Origin: Natrinema pellirubrum DSM 15624
GTDB taxonomy: Archaea; Halobacteriota; Halobacteria; Halobacteriales; Natrialbaceae
NCBI RefSeq assembly: GCF_000230735.2
Contig: NC_019962.1
Location: forward strand, 2,666,001 to 2,730,000
DNA length: 64,000 bases
Direction of reading: 5' to 3'
Position 1 is the first letter of the stretch, and each line of letters begins with the position of its first letter. This document shows positions 32,373 through 54,793 of the stretch, one piece after another. A model generated the notes under the pieces. That model was not told where the DNA came from. It did no database searches and saw only the letters and a list, made by a program, of their open reading frames with translations. Both the position numbers and the translations under genes were made by a program.

Positions 32373-32388
32373 TTTAGGCGGCCCTAAA
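32373..32388. promoter_or_regulatory. Candidate DtxR-type iron operator for the ABC ATPase gene
   Basis: TTTAGG-CGGC-CCTAAA is a 16-bp interrupted palindrome. It lies just downstream of the minus-strand TATA (complement of CTTATAATT, about 32391-32399), near the expected transcription start and 35 bp before ATG 32338. Form and place suit repression by an iron-responsive DtxR-family protein. Confidence 0.6.
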
Positions 32389-43747: not shown

Positions 43748-45577
43748 ATGGATCCCCTGCGGGCCGCCCTCGCGGCCGCGGTCGTCTGTGGGCTCGTCGT
43801 CAGCACGGCGCTACTGGCGGGCTTTGCCGTCGCCAACGAACCGGCAGTAGCCGATCGTGCCCTCGCTCGAGCGACCGCCGATCAGCCGGCGAACGCAACC
43901 GACCTCGCCTGCCCGCCTCGAGCGGGCGAAACGAACTCCACCAGCACGGAGACGCCTGACGAACCCCGGATCGCCGGCCTCTATCCGAATCCGACGACCG
44001 ACGAGAACGTCGGCGAGTTCGTCGTCCTCGAGACGCCGCCCGATACCCGACTCGGGAACCTGACGCTGACCGACGGCCACACGACGGCCCGGCTTCCGAA
44101 CGAAACCGTGACCGGACGGATCGCCCTCTCGATGGCCCCCAACGTGACGGAGACACTGACCGACGTTCCCGTCAGAGAACTCGAGGGTCGGCTCCGGCTT
44201 GCGGCCGACGGCGACGACCTCCGGCTCCGAAACGCGACGGCGACCGTCGACTCGGTCTCCTACGACCGGGCACCGACGGCCGAAAAATGGTATCGAACGG
44301 CACCGGCCGACGGCGAGGCGAACCGCCGGAGCGACGGCCAGTGGTGGCCCCGCGACGCCACCTGCCTCCCCGTTTCGACGGCCGCCGTCGACGACGCCAC
44401 GGCGTTCGTCCTCCCCGACGGTCCCGGGATCCCGCGGGAGACGATCCGCAACGCCGACGACCGACTCCTGCTGGCCGGCTACACCGTCACCTCCGAGGCG
44501 ATCGCTGCCGACCTCGTGGACGCGGCCGATCGCGGCGTCGAGGTCGCGGTCCTCCTCGAAGCCAGCCCAGTCGGGGGTACGCCCGCGGCGACCGAGGGCG
44601 TCCTCGAGACGCTCGCGAACGGCGGCGTCGAGGTACGCGTCATCGGCGGCGAGGACTCGCGATACCGGTATCACCACCCCAAATACGCCGTCGCCGACGA
44701 CCACCTGCTGGTCACCACCGAGAACTGGAAGCCGTCCGGTGTCGGCGGCGAGAGCAGCCGCGGCTGGGGTATTCGCCTCGAGTCCGACCCCCTCGCGGCC
44801 GACCTGGCGACCGTCTTCAGGGCCGACTTCGCGGGCCGGGATACGACCACGGGCGCGGCCTATCGCAGGAACACGACGTTTACCGACGACGGGCCGGTCT
44901 ACTCCTCGTCCGCTCCCGAGTATCCCACGACCCACGAGCCGACTCCGGTGCCAGTCGAGTCGGCCGAACTCCTGCTCGCGCCGGACAACGCCGACGCCCG
45001 GCTGACGGCGATGCTCGCAAGCGCCGACGAGGAGATCCTCGTCCTCCAGCCGTCGATCGCCGACGACGTCTCGCTGCTCGAGGCCACGCTCGCGGCCGCC
45101 CGCCGTGGGGTCGAGGTCCGTATCCTGGTCGGCTCGGCGCGGTACAACGCCGCGGAGAACGAGGTGCTGGCGGCGGATCTCGAGCGGATCGCGGATCGGG
45201 AGAACCTGCCCCTCGAGGTTCGACTCGTCGGTGACACGGACCGCTTCGAGAAGATACACGCGAAAGGGATCGTGATCGACGGCGAGACGGCGGTCGTCGG
45301 CAGCGCCAACTGGAATTCGAACTCGCTCGAGAACAACCGGGAGGTGTTGGTGGCACTTCACGGCGAGGCGGTCGCCGACTACTACGCGACCGTCTTCGAG
45401 TCGGATTGGGCGGGCGACTCGTGGTCGTTCCCGATCGGTGCCGGCGTCGCGGTCGCGGTTGCACTTGCTGTCGCCGCGGTCGTCGGCCGGCGCTATGTCA
45501 GGTTCGGGGGCGAGTCGGCCGTGGAGAACGAGTCGGCTGTGGACCCGGTCACGCCGGACGCGAACGACGAGGACTGA
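43748..45577 (+). CDS. Exported phospholipase D-like protein
   Basis: This 609-residue protein has an N-terminal signal helix (MDPLRAALAAAVVCGLVVST), a short domain resembling a lamin-tail module (PRIAGLYPNPTTDENVGEFV onward) and two PLD-type halves. The second HKD motif is canonical (IHAKGIVIDGETAVVGSANW). The first is divergent (HHPKYAVADDHLLVTTENW). A C-terminal helix (IGAGVAVAVALAVAAVVG) anchors it, with a short charged tail. It would act on phosphodiesters at the cell surface, as a nuclease or lipase. ATG 43748 fits the signal. It is convergent with the DtxR-family gene. Confidence 0.85.
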   Translation: MDPLRAALAAAVVCGLVVSTALLAGFAVANEPAVADRALARATADQPANATDLACPPRAGETNSTSTETPDEPRIAGLYPNPTTDENVGEFVVLETPPDTRLGNLTLTDGHTTARLPNETVTGRIALSMAPNVTETLTDVPVRELEGRLRLAADGDDLRLRNATATVDSVSYDRAPTAEKWYRTAPADGEANRRSDGQWWPRDATCLPVSTAAVDDATAFVLPDGPGIPRETIRNADDRLLLAGYTVTSEAIAADLVDAADRGVEVAVLLEASPVGGTPAATEGVLETLANGGVEVRVIGGEDSRYRYHHPKYAVADDHLLVTTENWKPSGVGGESSRGWGIRLESDPLAADLATVFRADFAGRDTTTGAAYRRNTTFTDDGPVYSSSAPEYPTTHEPTPVPVESAELLLAPDNADARLTAMLASADEEILVLQPSIADDVSLLEATLAAARRGVEVRILVGSARYNAAENEVLAADLERIADRENLPLEVRLVGDTDRFEKIHAKGIVIDGETAVVGSANWNSNSLENNREVLVALHGEAVADYYATVFESDWAGDSWSFPIGAGVAVAVALAVAAVVGRRYVRFGGESAVENESAVDPVTPDANDED

Positions 45578-45583
45578 GCCGGC

Positions 45584-46018
45584 TCAGTCGGCGTGGCCGC
45601 TGGCCTCGAGTTCGAGCAGCTCACAGCAGTCCTCCTCGGCGTCGAAACAGTCGGGACACTGGTCGGGTCGGTCGATGATCGTGTCGAGCCGCTCCGCGAC
45701 GGTGTCGTCGATGACGCTCTCTAGGGCGCGGGCCTCGTCTTTGAACTCCTCGACCTCGAGGACGTTCGCGAGGAACCGCTCGATGATACAGTAGGTCTGG
45801 AGGGCGTCGTGGGCGCGCTCGAGCCCCTCGTTGGTCAGACTCGCGCCCTTGTACTTCTCGTGGTCGACTAGCTCGCGGTCCTCGAGTTTGCCGATCATCT
45901 CGTTGACGCTGGCCGGGCTCACCTCGAGCAGGTCCGCGAGCGTACCGGTCGATGCAGGCCCGTCCTCGATGCGCTGGGCCAGATAGATCGCCTTGAGGTA
46001 TTGATCTGCAGTGTTCAT
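45584..46018 (-). CDS. DtxR/MntR-family metal-dependent repressor (SirR type)
   Basis: This 144-residue protein has an N-terminal winged helix (QYLKAIYLAQRIEDGPASTG, LLEVSPASVNEMIGKLEDRE), a metal-binding and dimerisation domain (YCIIERFLANVLEVEEFKDE, ARALESVIDDTVAERL) and a Cys-rich tail with Cys121, 124, 131 and 132. In haloarchaea this family controls iron or manganese genes. ATG 46018 is the normal start (MNTADQYLKAIY). It lies 130 nt downstream of the ferritin-like gene, next to sufDBC. Candidate operators are at 32373-32388 and perhaps the suf promoter. Confidence 0.93.
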   Translation of the reverse strand: MNTADQYLKAIYLAQRIEDGPASTGTLADLLEVSPASVNEMIGKLEDRELVDHEKYKGASLTNEGLERAHDALQTYCIIERFLANVLEVEEFKDEARALESVIDDTVAERLDTIIDRPDQCPDCFDAEEDCCELLELEASGHAD

Positions 46019-46151: not shown

Positions 46152-46646
46152 TCATGCTCGCTGCTCCATAATTGCGGTCACTTCCTCGACGCCCTCCTTT
46201 TCCTCCTCGCGGATGCCGGACAGCGTCTCGAGGAGTCGCTCGCGGTCGACCGCGAACTCGGAGTCGGAGGCCTCGATCGCCTCGATCAGGTCGTCGTAGA
46301 ACTTGTAGGCGGTCTCCTCGTTTGCAAGTTGGTCATAGAGGACGCCGTCCGTGTCCTCAGGCGGTCCGTACTGGGCGTCGACTAAGGCGTTTATCTCCTC
46401 GTATCCGACCGTCTCGGCCTCGAGATCGTCGATCAGCGCCTCGAGTCGCTCGCGGTGGTCGGCCGACTCCGTGGCGGCCTCCGCGAGCAACTCCTCCACC
46501 TCCGCGTCGACCGTCGCCCGCTCGTCGGGCGGGAGCGACTCGATGTGGTGGGCGGCGCGTGACTCGACGAGTTCCTCCAGCACGACCCCGATCTGTAGCA
46601 ATCGGGTCAGCTGGTGGTCGCTCGAGACACGCTGTCCCAGACTCAT
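46152..46646 (-). CDS. Ferritin-like/rubrerythrin-like protein
   Basis: This 164-residue all-helical protein starts MSLGQRVSSDHQLTRLLQIG. It has four long helices with repeated acidic pairs (LEELVESRAAHHIESLPPDE, AATESADHRERLEALIDDLE, LANEETAYKFYDDLIEAIEA, LSGIREEEKEGVEEVTAIME). The helices and Glu/His pattern resemble a ferritin-like di-iron bundle, but the usual ExxH pairs are incomplete, so metal binding is uncertain. It is placed between the sufD and SirR-type genes on the same strand, which suits iron or oxidative stress. Confidence 0.75.
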   Translation of the reverse strand: MSLGQRVSSDHQLTRLLQIGVVLEELVESRAAHHIESLPPDERATVDAEVEELLAEAATESADHRERLEALIDDLEAETVGYEEINALVDAQYGPPEDTDGVLYDQLANEETAYKFYDDLIEAIEASDSEFAVDRERLLETLSGIREEEKEGVEEVTAIMEQRA

Positions 46647-46734: not shown

Positions 46735-47949
46735 TCAGTCTCGCTGGCGGAGTCGCGCTCCGATCAGGTCCTCGAGGTCCTCGCGGAGTTCGTCGACGTC
46801 GATCTCCGCGAGAACGGGCACGAAGAAGCCCTCGACGAGCATGTTTCGGGCCGCGCGGGGGTCGACACCGCGGGAGGTCATGTAGAACAGGTCCTCCTGA
46901 TCGATCTGGCCGACCGTCGCGGAGTGGCTGGCCTCAGTGTCGTGGTTGTTGATGATCAGCTTCGGGGAGGCGTCGGCCTCGCTCTCGTCGGAGAGCATCA
47001 GCGTGTTCTCGCGCTGGTAGGAGCTGGTGTCCCACGCGTCGGAGCCGACGTCCTGGACGCCCTCGTAGACCGAGCGGGCGACGTCGTCGGTGACGCCGCG
47101 GGTCACGAGGTCGGCCGTCGTGTGTTCCGCACGATGCCAGACCTTCGCGTCGAGGTCGAAGTGCTGGTCGTTGTGGCCGTAGAAGGCACCGACGATCTGC
47201 GTCTCCGAGGAGTCGCCGCGCAGTTCCGTCGAGACCTCTGTCTTCGTCAGCTGGGTGCCGAGGTTGCCCTCGATCCAGTCGATCGTGGCGTAGGTGTCAG
47301 CGACACCGCGCTTGAGCGTGAAGTTGTAGGCCTCCTCCGAGAGGTTCTGGAGGCTGCCGTACTGGACGTAGCTGTTCTCGCCGGCGGCGACCTCGACAAT
47401 CCCGCTGTAGTACTGCTCCTCGGCCTCTTCGCCAGTCGACTGGCGCTCGAGGATCGTGACCGAGGACGACTCCTCGGTGACGACGAGCGTGTAGTTAAAC
47501 AGCGAGCGGGAGTTCTGCTCGGTCCGGACGGTGACGTCCTCGGCGTCGACGCCCTCGGGGACGTAGATTACCGTGCCGGTGCTAAACAGCGCCGTAGAGA
47601 GCGCCGTCAGGTAGTTCTCCTGGGGGTCGACGATGCTGCCGAAGTGGTCCTGCAGGAGGTCCTCGTGTTCCTGGACCGCGTCGGCCCACGAGAGAACCTC
47701 GGCCTCCTCAGGGCCGACCTGGTCCTTGTCCTCGGCCGCGTTCAGCGGATCGACGAGGGACTCGAAGTCGAGTTCGTGGAGGTTCGTCCAGTCCCGACCC
47801 GGCGTCCGGATGACTTCGGGCATCTCGAGGTCCTCGAGCGCCGCAAGCGCCTCGAGACGCGTCTCGAGGAGCCAGTCGGGCTCGTCGAGGTCGCCCGAAA
47901 TTTCGCGTACCTGTTCCTCCGTCAGATTGGCGTGTACCTGCGTACTCAT
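46735..47949 (-). CDS. sufD: Fe-S cluster assembly protein SufD
   Basis: This 404-residue protein has the SufD pattern: beta-helix repeats (VTVRTEQNSRSLFNYTLVVT, SSVTILERQSTGEEAEEQYY) and a C-terminal helical part (TSSYQRENTLMLSDESEADA, QEDLFYMTSRGVDPRAARNM). The late Asp/Glu-rich tail is halophile-like. With SufB it makes the heterodimer that builds [Fe-S] clusters from sulfide and Fe, powered by SufC. It follows sufB by one base, so the order is sufC-sufB-sufD on the minus strand. Confidence 0.94.
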   Translation of the reverse strand: MSTQVHANLTEEQVREISGDLDEPDWLLETRLEALAALEDLEMPEVIRTPGRDWTNLHELDFESLVDPLNAAEDKDQVGPEEAEVLSWADAVQEHEDLLQDHFGSIVDPQENYLTALSTALFSTGTVIYVPEGVDAEDVTVRTEQNSRSLFNYTLVVTEESSSVTILERQSTGEEAEEQYYSGIVEVAAGENSYVQYGSLQNLSEEAYNFTLKRGVADTYATIDWIEGNLGTQLTKTEVSTELRGDSSETQIVGAFYGHNDQHFDLDAKVWHRAEHTTADLVTRGVTDDVARSVYEGVQDVGSDAWDTSSYQRENTLMLSDESEADASPKLIINNHDTEASHSATVGQIDQEDLFYMTSRGVDPRAARNMLVEGFFVPVLAEIDVDELREDLEDLIGARLRQRD

Positions 47950-47950
47950 A

Positions 47951-49381
47951 TTATCCGAGGCTCCCCTCCATCTCGAGTTCGATGAGGCGGTTGAGCTCGA
48001 CCGCGTACTCGATCGGCAGTTCCTCCGTGATCGGCTCGATGAAGCCGGCGACGATCATCTTCTTGGCGTCGTCGTCGTCCAGTCCGCGCGACTGCAGATA
48101 GAAGATGTCCTCGTCGCCGATCTTGCCGACGGTCGCCTCGTGGGCGACGTCGACCTTCGACTCCTCGATTTCCATGTACGGCATGGTGTCCGAGGTCGAC
48201 TCGTTGTCGAACATCAGGGCGTCGCACTCGACGGCGGTCGAGGCGTTCTCGGCGCCGTCGGCGATGTGGACGAGGCCGCGGTAGTTGGTGCGGCCGCCGT
48301 CCTTGGAGATCGACTTGGACTCGATGGTCGAACTCGTCTCGGGCGCGTTGTGGTAGACCTTCGCGCCGGTGTCGATGTCCTGTCCTTCGCCCGCCAGGGC
48401 GATGGTGATGTGGGTGTCGGTCGAGCCGCGACCCTTGAGGATGGTACACGGGTAGAGCATGGTCACTTTCGAGCCCATGCTGCCAGAGACCCACTCCATC
48501 GTCCCGTTCTCCTCGCAGATGGCGCGCTTGGTGTTCAGGTTGAACGTGTTCTTCGACCAGTTCTGCACGGTCGAGTACTGAACGTGAGCGTCCTCGCCGA
48601 CGAAGACCTCGACGCCGCCGGAGTGGAGGTTGTGGGTCCCGTACTTGGGCGCGGAACAGCCCTCGATGTAGTGGACCTCGGAGCCTTCCTCGGCGATGAT
48701 GAGCGTGTGTTCGAACTGGCCCATCCCTTCCGAGTTCATCCGGAAGTAGGCCTGCACCGGCATCTCGACGGTCACGTCTTCGGGGACGTAGACGAACGAC
48801 CCGCCGGACCAGACGGCCCCGTGCAAGGCGGCGAACTTGTTGTCGCTCGGGGGCACGCAGGTCGTCATGAAGTGCTCTTTGACGAGCTCGGGATGTTCGC
48901 GGACGGCCTCATCCATGTTACAGAAGATGACGCCTTTCTCCTCCCACTGCTCTTGCATGTTCTGGTAGACGACCTCGGACTCGTACTGGGCACCCACGCC
49001 CGAGAGGGCGTTCTTCTCCGCTTCCGGGATGCCGAGCTTGTCGAAGGTGTCCTGAATCTCGTCGGGCAGCTCCGTCCAGTCGTCGACGCCTTCGCGTTTG
49101 TCGACGTCCGGTCGGATGTAGGGAATGATCTCCTCGACATCCAGTTCGGAGAGGTCGGGCATGCCGGGCCAGTCGGACGGCATCGGCATGTTGTGATACT
49201 GCTCGAGCGCACGGAGACGCCGCTCGAGCATCCAGTCGGGCTCGTCCTTGTCCTCGGAGATCATGCGGATGACCTCTTCGGTCAGGCCTTTGCCGGATCT
49301 GACGGCGGAGTTCTCCTCTTTCTTGAACTCGAACCGGGCCTCAGTGTCTGTCTCTTTTAGGTGGTCTTGATCGGAACTCAT
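47951..49381 (-). CDS. sufB: Fe-S cluster assembly protein SufB
   Basis: This 476-residue scaffold component of the SufBCD system has conserved parts WSGGSFVYVPEDVTVEMPVQ, AYFRMNSEGMGQFEHTLIIA, EEGSEVHYIEGCSAPKYGTH, WVSGSMGSKVTMLYPCTILK and EATVGKIGDEDIFYLQSRG. Several Cys are present, including that in EGCSAP. It holds nascent clusters with SufD and SufC. The N-terminal 100 residues are a helical region typical of haloarchaeal SufB (TEEVIRMISEDKDEPDWMLE). ATG 49381; spacing to sufC is 59 nt. Confidence 0.95.
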   Translation of the reverse strand: MSSDQDHLKETDTEARFEFKKEENSAVRSGKGLTEEVIRMISEDKDEPDWMLERRLRALEQYHNMPMPSDWPGMPDLSELDVEEIIPYIRPDVDKREGVDDWTELPDEIQDTFDKLGIPEAEKNALSGVGAQYESEVVYQNMQEQWEEKGVIFCNMDEAVREHPELVKEHFMTTCVPPSDNKFAALHGAVWSGGSFVYVPEDVTVEMPVQAYFRMNSEGMGQFEHTLIIAEEGSEVHYIEGCSAPKYGTHNLHSGGVEVFVGEDAHVQYSTVQNWSKNTFNLNTKRAICEENGTMEWVSGSMGSKVTMLYPCTILKGRGSTDTHITIALAGEGQDIDTGAKVYHNAPETSSTIESKSISKDGGRTNYRGLVHIADGAENASTAVECDALMFDNESTSDTMPYMEIEESKVDVAHEATVGKIGDEDIFYLQSRGLDDDDAKKMIVAGFIEPITEELPIEYAVELNRLIELEMEGSLG

Positions 49382-49440: not shown

Positions 49441-50352
49441 TTACGCAGTGCCGTAGACGTCTTCGCGGACCCAGTCGTACCCTTTGTCCTCGAGTTTCTC
49501 GGCGAGTTCGGGACCGCCGCTTTTGGCGATCTGGCCGTCGAGCATCACGTGGACGTGATCGGGCTCGACGTAGTCGAGGATGCGCTGGTAGTGGGTGATC
49601 TGCAGGATGCCGGTGCCCTGCTCGTCGCGCAGGGCGTTGATGCCCTCCGAAACGTCCTGCAGGCGGTCGATGTCGAGCCCGGAGTCGATCTCGTCCAGTA
49701 CGGCGACCGAGGGCTCGAGGATGGCGGCCTGCAGCACTTCGTTTTGCTTCTTCTCGCCGCCGGAGAAGCCGGCGTTGAGATAGCGCTGGGCGAACTTCTC
49801 GTCCATCTCCAGCTGCTCCATCTTCTCCTGGAGGATGCCCTGGAACTCGGCGACGCCGACCTCGCCCTCGTCCGCGGGGCCTTCCATCGGCGAGTTCTCG
49901 AAGCCTTCGTCGTCCTCTTCCGCTTCGTCCTCGCCGTCCTCGTCCTCGAAGAGTTCCTCGCGCTCTTCGATCTTGGCGTTCAGCGCCGTGCGGAGGAAGT
50001 TCGTCATCGTGACGCCCTCGATCTCGGCGGGGTACTGGAAGCCGAGGAAGATCCCGAGCGCGGCACGTTCGTTGGGTTCGAGATCGAGCAGGTTCCAGGT
50101 GCGCTGGTCCTCGTCGATCTCGATGTCCTCGCCGAACTCGTCGTCCTCGAGGTGGAGAAGAACCTCGCCCTCGGTGACCTCGTAGGCGGGATGGCCGGCG
50201 ATGACCTTCGCGGTCGTCGACTTCCCGGAGCCGTTCGGGCCCATCAGGGCGTGGATCTCGCCCGACTGGACCTCGAGGTCGACCCCCTCGAGAATCTGCT
50301 CGTCGCCCTCCGCTACTTCCGCGTGCAGGTTGGATAGTTCGAGACGTGCCAT
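49441..50352 (-). CDS. sufC: Fe-S cluster assembly ATPase SufC
   Basis: This 303-residue ABC-type ATPase has Walker A GPNGSGKST (38-46), signature FSGGEKKQNEV, Walker B SVAVLDEIDSGLDID and the switch His in ITHYQRIL. A halophile-specific acidic insert (EEREELFEDEDGEDEAEEDD) lies between Walker A and signature, longer than in bacteria. It drives SufB-SufD cluster assembly. It is the first gene of sufCBD. Its promoter has a TATA-like CTTATTTT (complement of 50429-50438) and a 16-bp palindrome near the expected start of transcription. Confidence 0.95.
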   Translation of the reverse strand: MARLELSNLHAEVAEGDEQILEGVDLEVQSGEIHALMGPNGSGKSTTAKVIAGHPAYEVTEGEVLLHLEDDEFGEDIEIDEDQRTWNLLDLEPNERAALGIFLGFQYPAEIEGVTMTNFLRTALNAKIEEREELFEDEDGEDEAEEDDEGFENSPMEGPADEGEVGVAEFQGILQEKMEQLEMDEKFAQRYLNAGFSGGEKKQNEVLQAAILEPSVAVLDEIDSGLDIDRLQDVSEGINALRDEQGTGILQITHYQRILDYVEPDHVHVMLDGQIAKSGGPELAEKLEDKGYDWVREDVYGTA

Positions 50353-50399
50353 AGTACTCTGTCACTCGAACGATGGGCCGTATGACTGATAACGGTTTC

Positions 50400-50415
50400 G
50401 TATCCAATTGGATAC
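50400..50415. promoter_or_regulatory. Perfect 16-bp palindrome at the suf promoter
   Basis: GTATCCAATTGGATAC is a perfect palindrome. It overlaps the predicted transcription start of sufCBD (about 50406), just downstream of the TATA at about 50429-50438 and 48 bp before the sufC ATG. The place and symmetry suit a repressor operator. Confidence 0.6.
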
Positions 50416-50624
50416 AGTCCTGCATTAGCAAAATAAGTTTCCCATTCGAAAACCAGCCTTTGGGTAGATGGAGAAATACCGCCATATAGACCCCTATTCC
50501 CCGATGGGATCGGCAGGGCCACAGGAACGGATTACGGGGCTGTTCGAACCCCGAAGACGGCGGGAAAACTCGTCGGAACGGCTGCGATAAGAAGCGACGA
50601 CCGGGACCGAAGCGTCCCGACGTG
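50416..50624. other. Region between suf and polB
   Basis: It contains the minus-strand TATA element for suf (about 50429-50438) and no credible gene. Bases 50517-50624 hold only the 3' flank of polB and no clear terminator structure. Confidence 0.4.
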
Positions 50625-53600
50625 CTACATAAAGGAGTCGAGACCTTTCTGTTCCTGGCCGTTTTTCACTTCGTCCCAGGAGATGTCCAGTGCTTCGAGG
50701 ATGCGCTCGATCGGCCCCTGCAAGGTCTTCTCGAGCATCTTCTCGTAGTCGACCGCGAACGCCTCGGGGATCTGGTCCTCGTACTCGAAACAGATCACGT
50801 CGGGATCGCGCTTGAACGCACCGTAGAGCGGGTCAGTCCGGGCGTCGAACCCTTCCTCCGCCTCGAGCCGTTCGAAGAACGATGGATCGACCCGCTCGAG
50901 ATAGAGTCGCTTGGGCTTGCTGCCCCGCTGGAAGTTGGTGCCGAGCAGCAGGTTGGCATACTTGGCGCCGCGGACCTGTGCCGTGTCGGTGTCGTAGTTG
51001 TCGAGTCGCTTGCCGATCCCGCCGGGGATGGCGATCTCCTCGAGGGAGATCTCGCCCGCCAACACGTCTTCGATGACGCCGTTGACGTACTCCTTGGCAC
51101 CCTCGATGTCGCCCTCGCGGACGATCATCTCGATGACGCGGTGCTGGACCTCCTTGGTGATCGGTGCGATATCGGACCGCTGGTACTCGAAGCCGACGAT
51201 GTCGACGTCGTTGACGTCCTTGCCTTCCTTCCAGGTGATGTGGCCCGCGTAGCGTTTCTTCTTGCCCGCCTGGAAGAACCGCCGGTAGAGCTTCTCGAAC
51301 TCGATCTGGAAGCGATGGAACTCAGCGTTCAGATCGTCTTTCGCGAAGTCGTCGTAGCGGCCGTTGATGTACTCCTCGATCTCAAAGGACTGCTCGAGAG
51401 CCTCTTCCTTGGGCACGTCGGGGCCCAACTCGAGCATGACGCTGTCCGTGTCCCCGTAGGTGACTTGGTAGTCCAGTTCCTGTGCGGCCGAGTCAGTAAA
51501 CTCGATGACTTCGCGACCGGTGGCGGTGATCGCCGAGGCGGCCTCCTTGTCGTAGAGCCGGAACTGCTCCCAGCCGGAGACGCCGTACAGCGACTGACCG
51601 ACGAACTGGAACTTCCCGTTTCGACCTGCGAGCAGCGTGTGATTATCCTCGACAGTGACACAGTAGACGCCGTTTTCGGCCGTGCTTCGGGAGGAACTCC
51701 GGTGCATCCGAAGCGTATTCTTCGACTCTTCAGTAACGTAGATCCGCCACGTGCCGCTGTCTCGACTGTAGTTGGCCGTTAAACCAAGGTGCGCACAGAG
51801 TCGAAGGACATCATCTCGAAGCCGGTCGCTGGATGTGGAGTAGCGCCATGAATTTACCTGACGGTCGCCATCGCCGTCGATGAGTCCCTCGAGGAACCGT
51901 CGTTTCTGTCGGCGACTGCAATCGAAGACGAACTCCGGGATTCGCTTCTCGAAGCTCCCGTCCCCACAGAGAGACCGCAGCAGATTACCGAGAAGCTTCG
52001 ACGTGACCGAATACGAACGGTCGTCGACGTAGTAGTCGAATCCCATATCGTCGAGTAGTTCGCCGATCGTCGCGTGGTGATTACCACCCCCATCGGTCAT
52101 GGGGAGTTTTTCCTGTGCAAGTTGTATTTTCGTCGCCGATCCACGGAAGTTCTCGCCGAACTGCTTGTCTTCAGACGTGTAGACGTTCCCCTCCGTCACG
52201 AACCATGCCAGCAGGTCGAGGAAGTCATCGCCATCGTACGTCCGTGGAATCCACTTCCGGCCGGATTCTCGGTGGACGAAGCTCGTCTCACAGACACTTT
52301 CGATATATTCACGGTGTTCTTCGAACTCCTCGGCAGTGAAGACGTACCCCGTTTTCCCGATATCGGCCTTCGGAACACGACGGGGAGTCCAACCGAGTTC
52401 TGCGGTGAACGTCCGACCATGAACCGACGGTCGGACCCAAACCTCGTATTCACCGTCTATCAGTTCCGTGAGATCGACTTCCGCTAGTTCCTCTCCGCCG
52501 GGCCCGTCCCAATCGTGTGGTAGCTCGTAGTTCGTTGCTCGGTCGAGGTCCCCGGCCTCGACGAACCCGTATTCGTCCTCGGTGATCCCGTTCGTCTCGT
52601 TCTTGCGGACGAGCATCCGGTGGTTCGGCGTAACGCGGAAGTCGATTTTGCTCGTCTCGATGTCTATTAGGTCACCGTCGTAGTCGGGATAGTCGTGCGT
52701 TTCGACGACGGGCTTAACCTCTAGTTCTTCCGTCTCCGGATCGAGTGAATACACCTCGTCACCGACCTCGAGGTCGGTGATATCGCGAACGCCGTTCGGA
52801 GTCAAGACCTCCGTATCCGGCGTAAAGCAGTTCATGATGACCTTTACCGCGCCCTGCTGACGGTCGTACTGTTCGTACTCTGGCGAGCCGGGTTCGTGCT
52901 GGTCTCGCAGTTCCTTTTTCTCCTCGCGCTCGGCGAGCAGTTCCGTGATCATCTCGCGGTTGACGCCGTCGGGTTCCTTCCGGAAGTGGGTCCCCGTCGG
53001 CGCAACGTAGGTCTCCCCGTCGTACTCGTCGGGGTCGACTTTCGTTTCCGGGGAGGCGTTGATCGTCGTCATACACATCGGGTACAGCGACTTCAGGTCC
53101 AGTACGGTGACGTTCTCCTTGACGCCCGTGATGGGCTCGAACACCGCGCCACCCTCGTATTCCTCGCCGGCCTCCTGTTGGCCCTTCGAGGGCAGCGCGA
53201 AGCGGCCGTGGGCCTCATGGAGGACGTACATGTCGACCGCATCGCCCGGCGTCGGCGCGTCCTCGAGTTTGCAGCCGACGAACGCCCGGACTTCGTCCCA
53301 GAAGGGGATGATCTCCTGCTGGCGGTCGAGTTCGACACAGAGTTCGACGTCCCGGAGGTTGTACGCGAGCAGTTGGGTCGGGTCCTCCTCCCAGAGGTCG
53401 CCGATATCGCCGGCGTAGCGTTCCTTGCCGACGCCCAGCTCCGCCTCGCCGACGGCGTCGAGCCGGTAGGAATCCAGCTCGGAGAAGACCATCCGCTGAT
53501 AGCCATAGAGCAGGTCGAAGACGACGCGACCCTTGATGTCCGGGCCGCCCCAGTTGCTGCGCCAGACCTCGTCGACGCGTGAGAGCCGATCGATCGAGAG

Positions 53601-54590
53601 GTCGTACTCGTGGTGGGACCCGGCGAGTTCCTCGAGTCGGTCGAGGAAATAGGGCGCGTCGAAGTCCTCGAAGTTCCAGCCGGTCAGGACGTCGGGGTCG
53701 GTCTCGTCGACGTACTCGATGAAGGCCTCGAGCATGGCCTCCTCTTCCTCGAAACTGCGGACCTCGTGGTCGATCTCGCCCTCGATCGGGTCGTAGTCGT
53801 CGATCTCGGCCGGAGTCTCGCCGTCGCCGATCGGGGCCTCGTAGAGCCACATCACGTACTCGTCGCGGTAGGAGTCGTGGCTGGTGAGACAGACGATCGG
53901 CTCCTCGCCGTCCTCGGGAAAGCCCGACCGGTCGTCGACCTCGATGTCGAAGGTGTTGATGCGGGGGTCGGCGTCGACGTCGACCGGTTCGACCTCGTCG
54001 TGGGGGACGACCAGCGAGTCGTCCTCGGCCCGTCGTTCGGGTACCCGCATTCCGCTGCGGATGTCCTTGTCGATCAGAAAGCGGTTCGGGAACAGGATAT
54101 CGGCTTCGTAGTGTTCGAAGTCGTCGCGGACCTGCCCGACGTCGCGGGGGGTCTGGCCGAAGATTTTGGTGAGTCTCTCCCCCCGGATGCTCTCGTAGGG
54201 GTCGCCGTCGTGGTCGTACTCCCTGCTGCCGGTCAGTCGGTCGTACTCTTCCGCCGGCGGTCGCTCGAGGCTCTCCGTCGGCGCGTAGAAGTAGGGTTTG
54301 AAACCGACGATCTGGACGTGTTCGAGTTCCTCATCGGGGGTACGCCCGAACACGTGCATGATGGGTCGTTCCTCGTCGCCGTAGCCGACGATGGTGTAGT
54401 CGACCTGCATCACGGCGAGTTCGAGGTCGCCCTCGGATTCGGGGAGGGTTTCCTCGACGACGTCGATCACCTCCGCGGCGTCGCTACCGCCGTTGCCGGC
54501 GACGGCGACGGCCTCTTCCTCCGGCCGGTCGTCGGCTGCCTCGGAGTCGCCGCCGAACTCCGTGAGTCCGGTCTGGCCCGCCTCAGTCAT
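50625..54590 (-). CDS. polB: DNA polymerase B family with an intein
   Basis: The open frame has 1321 residues; removal of the 412-residue intein leaves 909, normal for archaeal family B replicative polymerases. Exonuclease motifs are FDIEVD (Asp215, Glu217), WNFEDFDAPYF and YNLRDVELCV. Polymerase motif A is DLKSLYPMCMTTINASPETK, and motif C is YGDTDSVMLE. The intein sits between VIMN and SLYGV, within the conserved motif B-type helix. ATG 54590 follows a TATA-like TTTTTATCC by about 25 bp, so the message is nearly leaderless. The N-terminus is acidic and disordered. It is the last gene of no obvious operon. Confidence 0.96.
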   Translation of the reverse strand: MTEAGQTGLTEFGGDSEAADDRPEEEAVAVAGNGGSDAAEVIDVVEETLPESEGDLELAVMQVDYTIVGYGDEERPIMHVFGRTPDEELEHVQIVGFKPYFYAPTESLERPPAEEYDRLTGSREYDHDGDPYESIRGERLTKIFGQTPRDVGQVRDDFEHYEADILFPNRFLIDKDIRSGMRVPERRAEDDSLVVPHDEVEPVDVDADPRINTFDIEVDDRSGFPEDGEEPIVCLTSHDSYRDEYVMWLYEAPIGDGETPAEIDDYDPIEGEIDHEVRSFEEEEAMLEAFIEYVDETDPDVLTGWNFEDFDAPYFLDRLEELAGSHHEYDLSIDRLSRVDEVWRSNWGGPDIKGRVVFDLLYGYQRMVFSELDSYRLDAVGEAELGVGKERYAGDIGDLWEEDPTQLLAYNLRDVELCVELDRQQEIIPFWDEVRAFVGCKLEDAPTPGDAVDMYVLHEAHGRFALPSKGQQEAGEEYEGGAVFEPITGVKENVTVLDLKSLYPMCMTTINASPETKVDPDEYDGETYVAPTGTHFRKEPDGVNREMITELLAEREEKKELRDQHEPGSPEYEQYDRQQGAVKVIMNCFTPDTEVLTPNGVRDITDLEVGDEVYSLDPETEELEVKPVVETHDYPDYDGDLIDIETSKIDFRVTPNHRMLVRKNETNGITEDEYGFVEAGDLDRATNYELPHDWDGPGGEELAEVDLTELIDGEYEVWVRPSVHGRTFTAELGWTPRRVPKADIGKTGYVFTAEEFEEHREYIESVCETSFVHRESGRKWIPRTYDGDDFLDLLAWFVTEGNVYTSEDKQFGENFRGSATKIQLAQEKLPMTDGGGNHHATIGELLDDMGFDYYVDDRSYSVTSKLLGNLLRSLCGDGSFEKRIPEFVFDCSRRQKRRFLEGLIDGDGDRQVNSWRYSTSSDRLRDDVLRLCAHLGLTANYSRDSGTWRIYVTEESKNTLRMHRSSSRSTAENGVYCVTVEDNHTLLAGRNGKFQFVGQSLYGVSGWEQFRLYDKEAASAITATGREVIEFTDSAAQELDYQVTYGDTDSVMLELGPDVPKEEALEQSFEIEEYINGRYDDFAKDDLNAEFHRFQIEFEKLYRRFFQAGKKKRYAGHITWKEGKDVNDVDIVGFEYQRSDIAPITKEVQHRVIEMIVREGDIEGAKEYVNGVIEDVLAGEISLEEIAIPGGIGKRLDNYDTDTAQVRGAKYANLLLGTNFQRGSKPKRLYLERVDPSFFERLEAEEGFDARTDPLYGAFKRDPDVICFEYEDQIPEAFAVDYEKMLEKTLQGPIERILEALDISWDEVKNGQEQKGLDSFM
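51594..52829 (-). other. PolB intein with LAGLIDADG homing endonuclease
   Basis: This is a 412-residue self-splicing insert (host residues 588-999). It starts Cys (CFTPDTEVLTPNG), with block B Thr/His in TPNH (67-70). Two dodecapeptide motifs, LLAWFVTEG (206-214) and LEGLIDGDG (313-321), mark a homing endonuclease. The C-terminal blocks read VTVEDNHTLLAGRNGKFQFV then GQ, followed by extein Ser. The last residues are Gly-Gln instead of the usual His-Asn, so splicing would go through Gln cyclisation. Both domains look complete. Confidence 0.93.
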
Positions 54591-54793
54591 GGTACTCCGG
54601 TTGGCAGTCGCCGGATAAAAACCCCTGCAATCCCCGCCCGCGAAGGGCTCGCGGCGGGTCGTTCGGAAGGGGGCGGCCATTGCGAACAGTCACGCGCAGG
54701 ACACGGTCTCATCGGACCAGCGAGACGGCGTTCGAGGGAACACTTGCGGGGGCAACAAGACATATAACGTGGTAACACTTAGCATGCGTTCAG

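Follow-up and report, generated by a model that had tools for sequence, protein, structure and literature searches.

A palindrome conserved upstream of sufCBD in Natrialbaceae is a candidate operator

A perfect 16-bp palindrome, GTATCCAATTGGATAC, lies at positions 50400..50415 (no strand assigned) of the window, which is the whole 64,000-nucleotide stretch of DNA analyzed here, and is conserved before sufC in most Natrialbaceae. On the basis of its sequence and conservation, we propose it as a candidate sufCBD operator, probably read by a regulator that binds DNA as a dimer, controls sufCBD and acts most simply as a repressor. To our knowledge, the regulation of Fe-S cluster assembly in archaea is poorly known. 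Bacterial suf operons have SufR and IscR sites upstream, which are palindromic operators controlling Fe-S assembly genes. The sufC palindrome resembles these sites in its palindromic form and in its place before Fe-S assembly genes, and differs from them in sequence. An operator is in itself an ordinary kind of object; the interesting part is the restricted distribution of this one and its mutual exclusion with a DtxR-type box at the same gene. The site was not named in the part of the literature that our search covered, which is no proof that it is unpublished.

All genes of the operon are on the minus strand: sufC (49441..50352), encoding the Fe-S cluster assembly ATPase (TIGR01978, 294 bits with a cut-off of 213), sufB (47951..49381; TIGR01980, 744 bits) and sufD (46735..47949; TIGR01981, 285 bits). 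Downstream of sufCBD follow a gene for a 164-aa protein (46152..46646, minus strand), which is ferritin-like by eye only and matched no family, and then a DtxR-family metalloregulator gene (45584..46018, minus strand; PF01325, 64 bits; PF02742, 46 bits). Because sufC is read from the minus strand with its ATG at 50352, the palindrome lies 48 bp upstream of that ATG. The stretch 50625-54680 holds a 1351-aa reading frame for a B-family DNA polymerase, apparently intein-containing as judged by eye from the translation. An 18-bp perfect palindrome (GACTGAGCCGGCTCAGTC, 45572-45589) is located where the DtxR-family gene and a convergent 703-aa frame end, a terminator-like position.

The exact sequence and position bore out the first-pass annotation, which had reported a perfect 16-bp palindrome at this place: 8 of 8 pairs are complementary, and GTATCCAATTGGATAC had no other match in the window at up to 3 mismatches. 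Palindrome length alone was weak evidence, because 13 perfect palindromes of at least 16 bp were observed in the window against approximately 2 expected from base composition. A perfect 32-bp palindrome was also seen at 1037-1068, within a 388-aa reading frame (726-1892) that is transposase-like by eye. Within the 272-bp sufC intergenic region, GTATCCAATTGGATAC was the sole perfect palindrome, the expected number being 0.004 at the GC content of the region itself and 0.008 at that of the window. For the consensus arms, the chance of an 8/8 match at one given centre was approximately 3e-5, and 0.004-0.008 across the intergenic region. The dyad symmetry therefore exceeds chance at its place, as that of a palindromic operator should, and an origin as a chance palindrome was ruled out by the conservation described below, despite the 13 perfect palindromes in the window.

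Conservation was analyzed in a sample of 80 sufC loci, 30 further sufC loci and the window. Upstream regions of identical sequence were merged, and the distinct region L072 was dropped because it had no match to the alignment anchor; the aligned set comprised 57 distinct sufC upstream regions from Natrialbaceae and 42 from other haloarchaeal families. When the palindrome was scored as intact with at most 1 mismatch per arm, it was intact in 48 of the 57 Natrialbaceae regions and in none of the 42 regions from other families (0/42). Among the remaining Natrialbaceae, only the right arm was intact in 5, only the left arm in 1, and neither arm in 3. All 8 pairs were complementary in 22 of the 57 regions. 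The mean number of complementary pairs was 6.05 of 8 in Natrialbaceae versus 2.17 of 8, equal to background, at the same place in the other families, and no scanned centre had a stronger dyad than -8/-7 (0.76 paired; mean over the centres 0.27, standard deviation 0.12). The left arm (columns -15 to -10) had a mean of 1.36 bits in Natrialbaceae and was thus about three times as conserved as the adjacent spacer between the TATA box and the palindrome (0.44 bits), whereas the same columns in other families reached 0.20 bits. Since none of the 42 non-Natrialbaceae promoters has the palindrome, it is not a haloarchaea-wide sufC element, and among the regions compared it is restricted to Natrialbaceae. 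The conservation that the first-pass annotation had proposed to look for before sufC in haloarchaea was accordingly found in most of the close relatives, the Natrialbaceae, and not in the other families. Within the family the palindrome is kept as sequence before orthologous genes, as operators are.

In the sufC tree, the nearest sufC was 99% identical to that of the window, the Natrialbaceae formed one side of a starred branch, and the presence of the palindrome needed 6 changes. The deep-branching Natrialbaceae rows L102, L030, L064 and L074 carried the palindrome. This number of changes, together with carriage by deep branches, fits a single gain on the Natrialbaceae stem followed by several losses. 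The nine exceptions were three distinct Halovivax regions, four rows of the Natrialba hulunbeirensis clade, L069 and L084. The Halovivax regions had lost both arms together, with the adjoining ACGAAACCGTTAT still intact. In the N. hulunbeirensis clade and L084 the left arm was lost and the right arm still passed, indicating that joint loss of the arms is not general.

The symmetry might also be incidental, the two arms being conserved separately, as start-site context and leader element, with no dimeric protein reading both. Consistent with this, single-arm losses do exist (5/57 with the right arm only and 1/57 with the left arm only), the right arm borders on an element that all families conserve, and the 13 perfect palindromes in the window indicate that symmetry alone is common. 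However, general start-site context does not explain the left arm, whose columns do not rise above background in other families, and the small chance of an 8/8 match, per centre as well as per intergenic region, and the joint loss of both arms in Halovivax also argue against separate conservation. We therefore consider incidental symmetry unlikely and favour the operator of a dimeric regulator, with part of the right-arm conservation possibly having another cause, because this arm adjoins, and may belong to, a leader element conserved in all families.

The pattern of changes pointed to DNA rather than RNA as the conserved form. Compensated (both-side) changes in the palindrome pairs were found in 0 cells across the 57 Natrialbaceae sequences; since changes were never compensated across the dyad, the palindrome is kept as a DNA sequence and not as an RNA stem, and conservation of this type fits protein binding to DNA. 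A search of 50200-50700 against Rfam gave no match at E up to 10. An RNA hairpin or structured leader at the palindrome was rejected on these two results. Another candidate, a GAAA-capped hairpin just downstream (AATGC-GAAA-GCATT), was set aside, since it forms in a part of the other families and not in Natrialbaceae (Watson-Crick pairs, 0.52 versus 0.20). A second, weaker dyad (50375..50388, no strand assigned), of the GGGTC..GACCC type in other species, is located in the predicted leader; it was centred at 18/19 in both groups, and both-side changes were found in 7 cells in Natrialbaceae and 19 cells in the others. At 50375-50400 of the window, CGAAAnCnTTAT is followed by a dyad of the GGGTC..GACCC type, and this arrangement is conserved within the sufC leader in every haloarchaeal family examined. 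One study describes processing sites conserved between Halobacterium and Haloferax as enriched in Fe-S assembly genes (PMC8303175), so that post-transcriptional control of these genes may exist too.

The position of the palindrome relative to the promoter bears on how a bound protein would act. The published haloarchaeal promoter consensus (PMC4983044) consists of a BRE (CGAAA), a TATA box (TTWT) and WW at -10. Two candidates were found on the minus strand. P1, GGGAAACTTATTTT (50430..50443), is a candidate core promoter with BRE and TATA box, called from sequence, consensus and conservation in both groups; it lies approximately 25 bp upstream of the palindrome centre, and its predicted start coincides with that centre. 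P2, CGAAACCGTTAT (50389..50400), is a second BRE/TATA-like match directly after the palindrome, and might equally be a leader or operator element; as a promoter it would set the start approximately 43 bp downstream of the palindrome centre. The geometry differs accordingly: with P1 the palindrome straddles the start, which is repressor geometry, and with P2 it abuts the BRE from upstream, which is activator geometry. Lineage-restricted conservation is equally compatible with a repressor and an activator and cannot tell them apart.

If P2 were the real promoter, the palindrome would be an activator site directly upstream of its BRE, from which an activator would recruit TFB/TBP. In support of this, P2 matches the haloarchaeal BRE CGAAA and a TATA box of the form TTAT (PMC4983044). 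All haloarchaea examined share CGAAACCGTTAT in conserved form, and no other stretch is as well conserved in either group; columns 3, 4 and 8 show no variation in 99 of 99 aligned regions, in a part of the sequence that doubled as the alignment anchor. In addition, the DtxR-type box found 0-9 bp before the ATG in 18 of the 42 other regions would overlap a P2 start. On the other hand, the loose BRE/TATA pattern at P1 was present in 54 of the 57 Natrialbaceae regions and 30 of the 42 others, and P1 is similar to the promoters of tupA in these genomes (AAA-N-CTATTT), 27 of 29 of which have TATWT beginning 30-31 bp ahead of the ATG. The alignment of both groups showed no conserved WW at the corresponding place of P2, and the AA approximately 10 bp before the P1 start is kept in 35 of the 42 other regions. 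The WW at -10 of P1 was nevertheless found in 21 of the 57 Natrialbaceae versus those 35 of 42, which counts against a reading based on P1. Taken together, we prefer P1 over P2 as the sufC promoter, with the start site as a prediction, and an activator site at P2 appears rather improbable. Of the earlier placement of the palindrome over the sufCBD start site, the centring on the P1 start stands as a prediction, and P2 would allow a later start.

The candidate sufCBD operator is thus most likely that of a repressor. With the palindrome centred on the P1-predicted start, a bound dimer would most simply block the recruitment of RNA polymerase or initiation, and a demand for Fe-S assembly would lift the repression. 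Sensing of Fe-S clusters or redox state by the regulator, as the first-pass annotation had suggested, is no more than a sensible guess based on the target genes. Its suggestion of a second regulator was strengthened by our results: a regulator other than those of TTAGG boxes is likely, because the sequence is not of the DtxR/TTAGG type, is conserved in most Natrialbaceae and is centred on the P1-predicted start.

Genomes were searched for such a regulator and for further targets. Matches to Rrf2, the family of IscR (PF02082), were found in 15 of 15 genomes and were weak and mostly partial, covering the HTH part; the best reached 34.6 bits (cut-off 30) over positions 8-64 of 132 only, and longer matches fell below the cut-off, so that no convincing Rrf2/IscR protein was seen. 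The pattern GTATCCN4GGATAC occurred in 70 of 125 genomes of the family with all genomic places pooled. When six copies outside sufC were opened, five were inside long reading frames and the sixth (G000:C2) had no clear promoter context. The looser GTATCN6GATAC gave 19 sites in six genomes, namely sufC in 6 of 6, the start of tungstate-type tupA in 4 of 6, and 9 others, and no shared place was recognized in these genomes beyond sufC and the tupA start. Allowing one mismatch gave 32 sites in four genomes, 4 of them at sufC, and on the sites themselves no other shared place was recognized. A coding motif, RLYPNLDTL, found in 14 of 14 copies opened (PadR-like proteins by eye), inflated the N6-spacer control, which is therefore a poor background control. 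The palindrome is apparently unique in the genomes searched, and the operator seems to be unique to sufC at the stringency used, at which weaker sites would escape. These searches yielded neither the regulator nor a second target, which counts against an operator and is unusual, though known, for operators. A single conserved operator before sufCBD is, at the same time, a clean bait for finding its regulator.

The DtxR-family gene downstream of sufCBD, which we take to be a probable TroR orthologue from gene order in Haloferax, keeps its linkage to sufCBD, and the palindrome might therefore be a site of this neighbouring regulator with altered specificity. However, its recognition-helix sequence SPASVNEM is identical in Natrialbaceae and in lineages with TTAGG boxes (Halorussus, Haladaptatus), and TTAGGN4CCTAA boxes are intact in the genome, with 21 sites versus 1 for the reversed pattern. 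The palindrome, GTATCC-N4-GGATAC, contains no TTAGG half-site, so that the first-pass annotation was correct in finding it unlike the TTTAGG motif. Altered specificity of the neighbouring regulator is thus very unlikely. A DtxR-type box at the palindrome was also sought and rejected, the best match to TTAGGTNNACCTAA in the 57 Natrialbaceae having at least 4 mismatches in 12. Six genes beside TTAGGN4CCTAA sites were scanned and included those for a FecCD permease, a periplasmic-binding protein, an ABC ATPase, a glycosyltransferase and a CARDB protein. One of the 21 sites, the TTTAGGCGGCCCTAAA box at approximately 32373-32388 of the window, lies just before an ABC-transporter ATPase gene with TOBE_2.

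A DtxR-type box (TTAGGTnnACCTAA), scored as a match to TTAGGTNNACCTAA that has no more than 2 mismatches and lies within 9 bp of the sufC ATG, was found in 18 of the 42 non-Natrialbaceae promoters (among them L028, L079-L081, L087, L092, L093, L095, L099, L100 and L110-L112) and in 0 of the 57 Natrialbaceae, and no row had both this box and the palindrome. Like the palindrome, the DtxR/IdeR-type iron box of other haloarchaea (TTAGGTnnnCCTAA) is a short palindrome in the control region of the same operon, but the two are unrelated in sequence, and the box lies 0-9 bp before the ATG whereas the palindrome lies approximately 48 bp before it. The box needed 4 changes on the sufC tree, compatible both with loss in Natrialbaceae and with gain elsewhere, and putative DtxR-type control at the sufC start is seen in two parts of the haloarchaeal tree outside the Natrialbaceae. 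This exclusive pattern suggests operator turnover and offers a test case of it upstream of an essential operon. A bolder and doubtful extension is that control of sufCBD passed, in the ancestor of the Natrialbaceae, to a dedicated regulator with one operator per genome, DtxR-type control of sufC being absent or lost. If true, this would make the regulator a candidate for an archaeal sensor of Fe-S clusters or redox state, of a kind so far undescribed.

The tupA start shares the core GTATC-N6-GATAC with the sufC palindrome, each near a predicted start, which raised the question of a ModE-type (molybdate/tungstate) operator at sufC. The core is present at the ATG in 26 of 30 tupA loci and is identical at sufC, and the tup operon encodes an HTH_1+TOBE protein of ModE type. 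All 5 genomes of the genus Halovivax that were tested lacked a ModE-like gene, and the 3 of them with the sufC region read had lost the palindrome, a joint absence that is taken as coincidence. The outer boxes differ, however: the CGT/ACG boxes of the tupA operator are invariant (29 of 29 have G at -2 together with CG at +19/+20), whereas the sufC site lacks the outer CG boxes (-3/-2 and +19/+20), and 48 of 48 intact sites carry A at -2. The two sites have also evolved differently in Natrinema, where the tupA start now reads CGTTATTCC..GGAATATCG in 2 of 3 genomes and TTGTTCC in the remaining one, the palindrome at sufC being perfect, and genome G071 has tupA and a ModE-like gene and has lost the palindrome. 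Because of the differing outer boxes, the divergence in Natrinema and G071, the shared core was not taken to mean the same regulator, and we give a ModE-type operator at sufC next to no credence. The tupA operator nonetheless provides a ready positive control in the same genomes. At the tupA-like loci (L178-L207, L211 and L213), the ModE-type operator CGTDGTATCN6GATACAWCG spans the start codon and thereby fixes ATA as the Ile codon.
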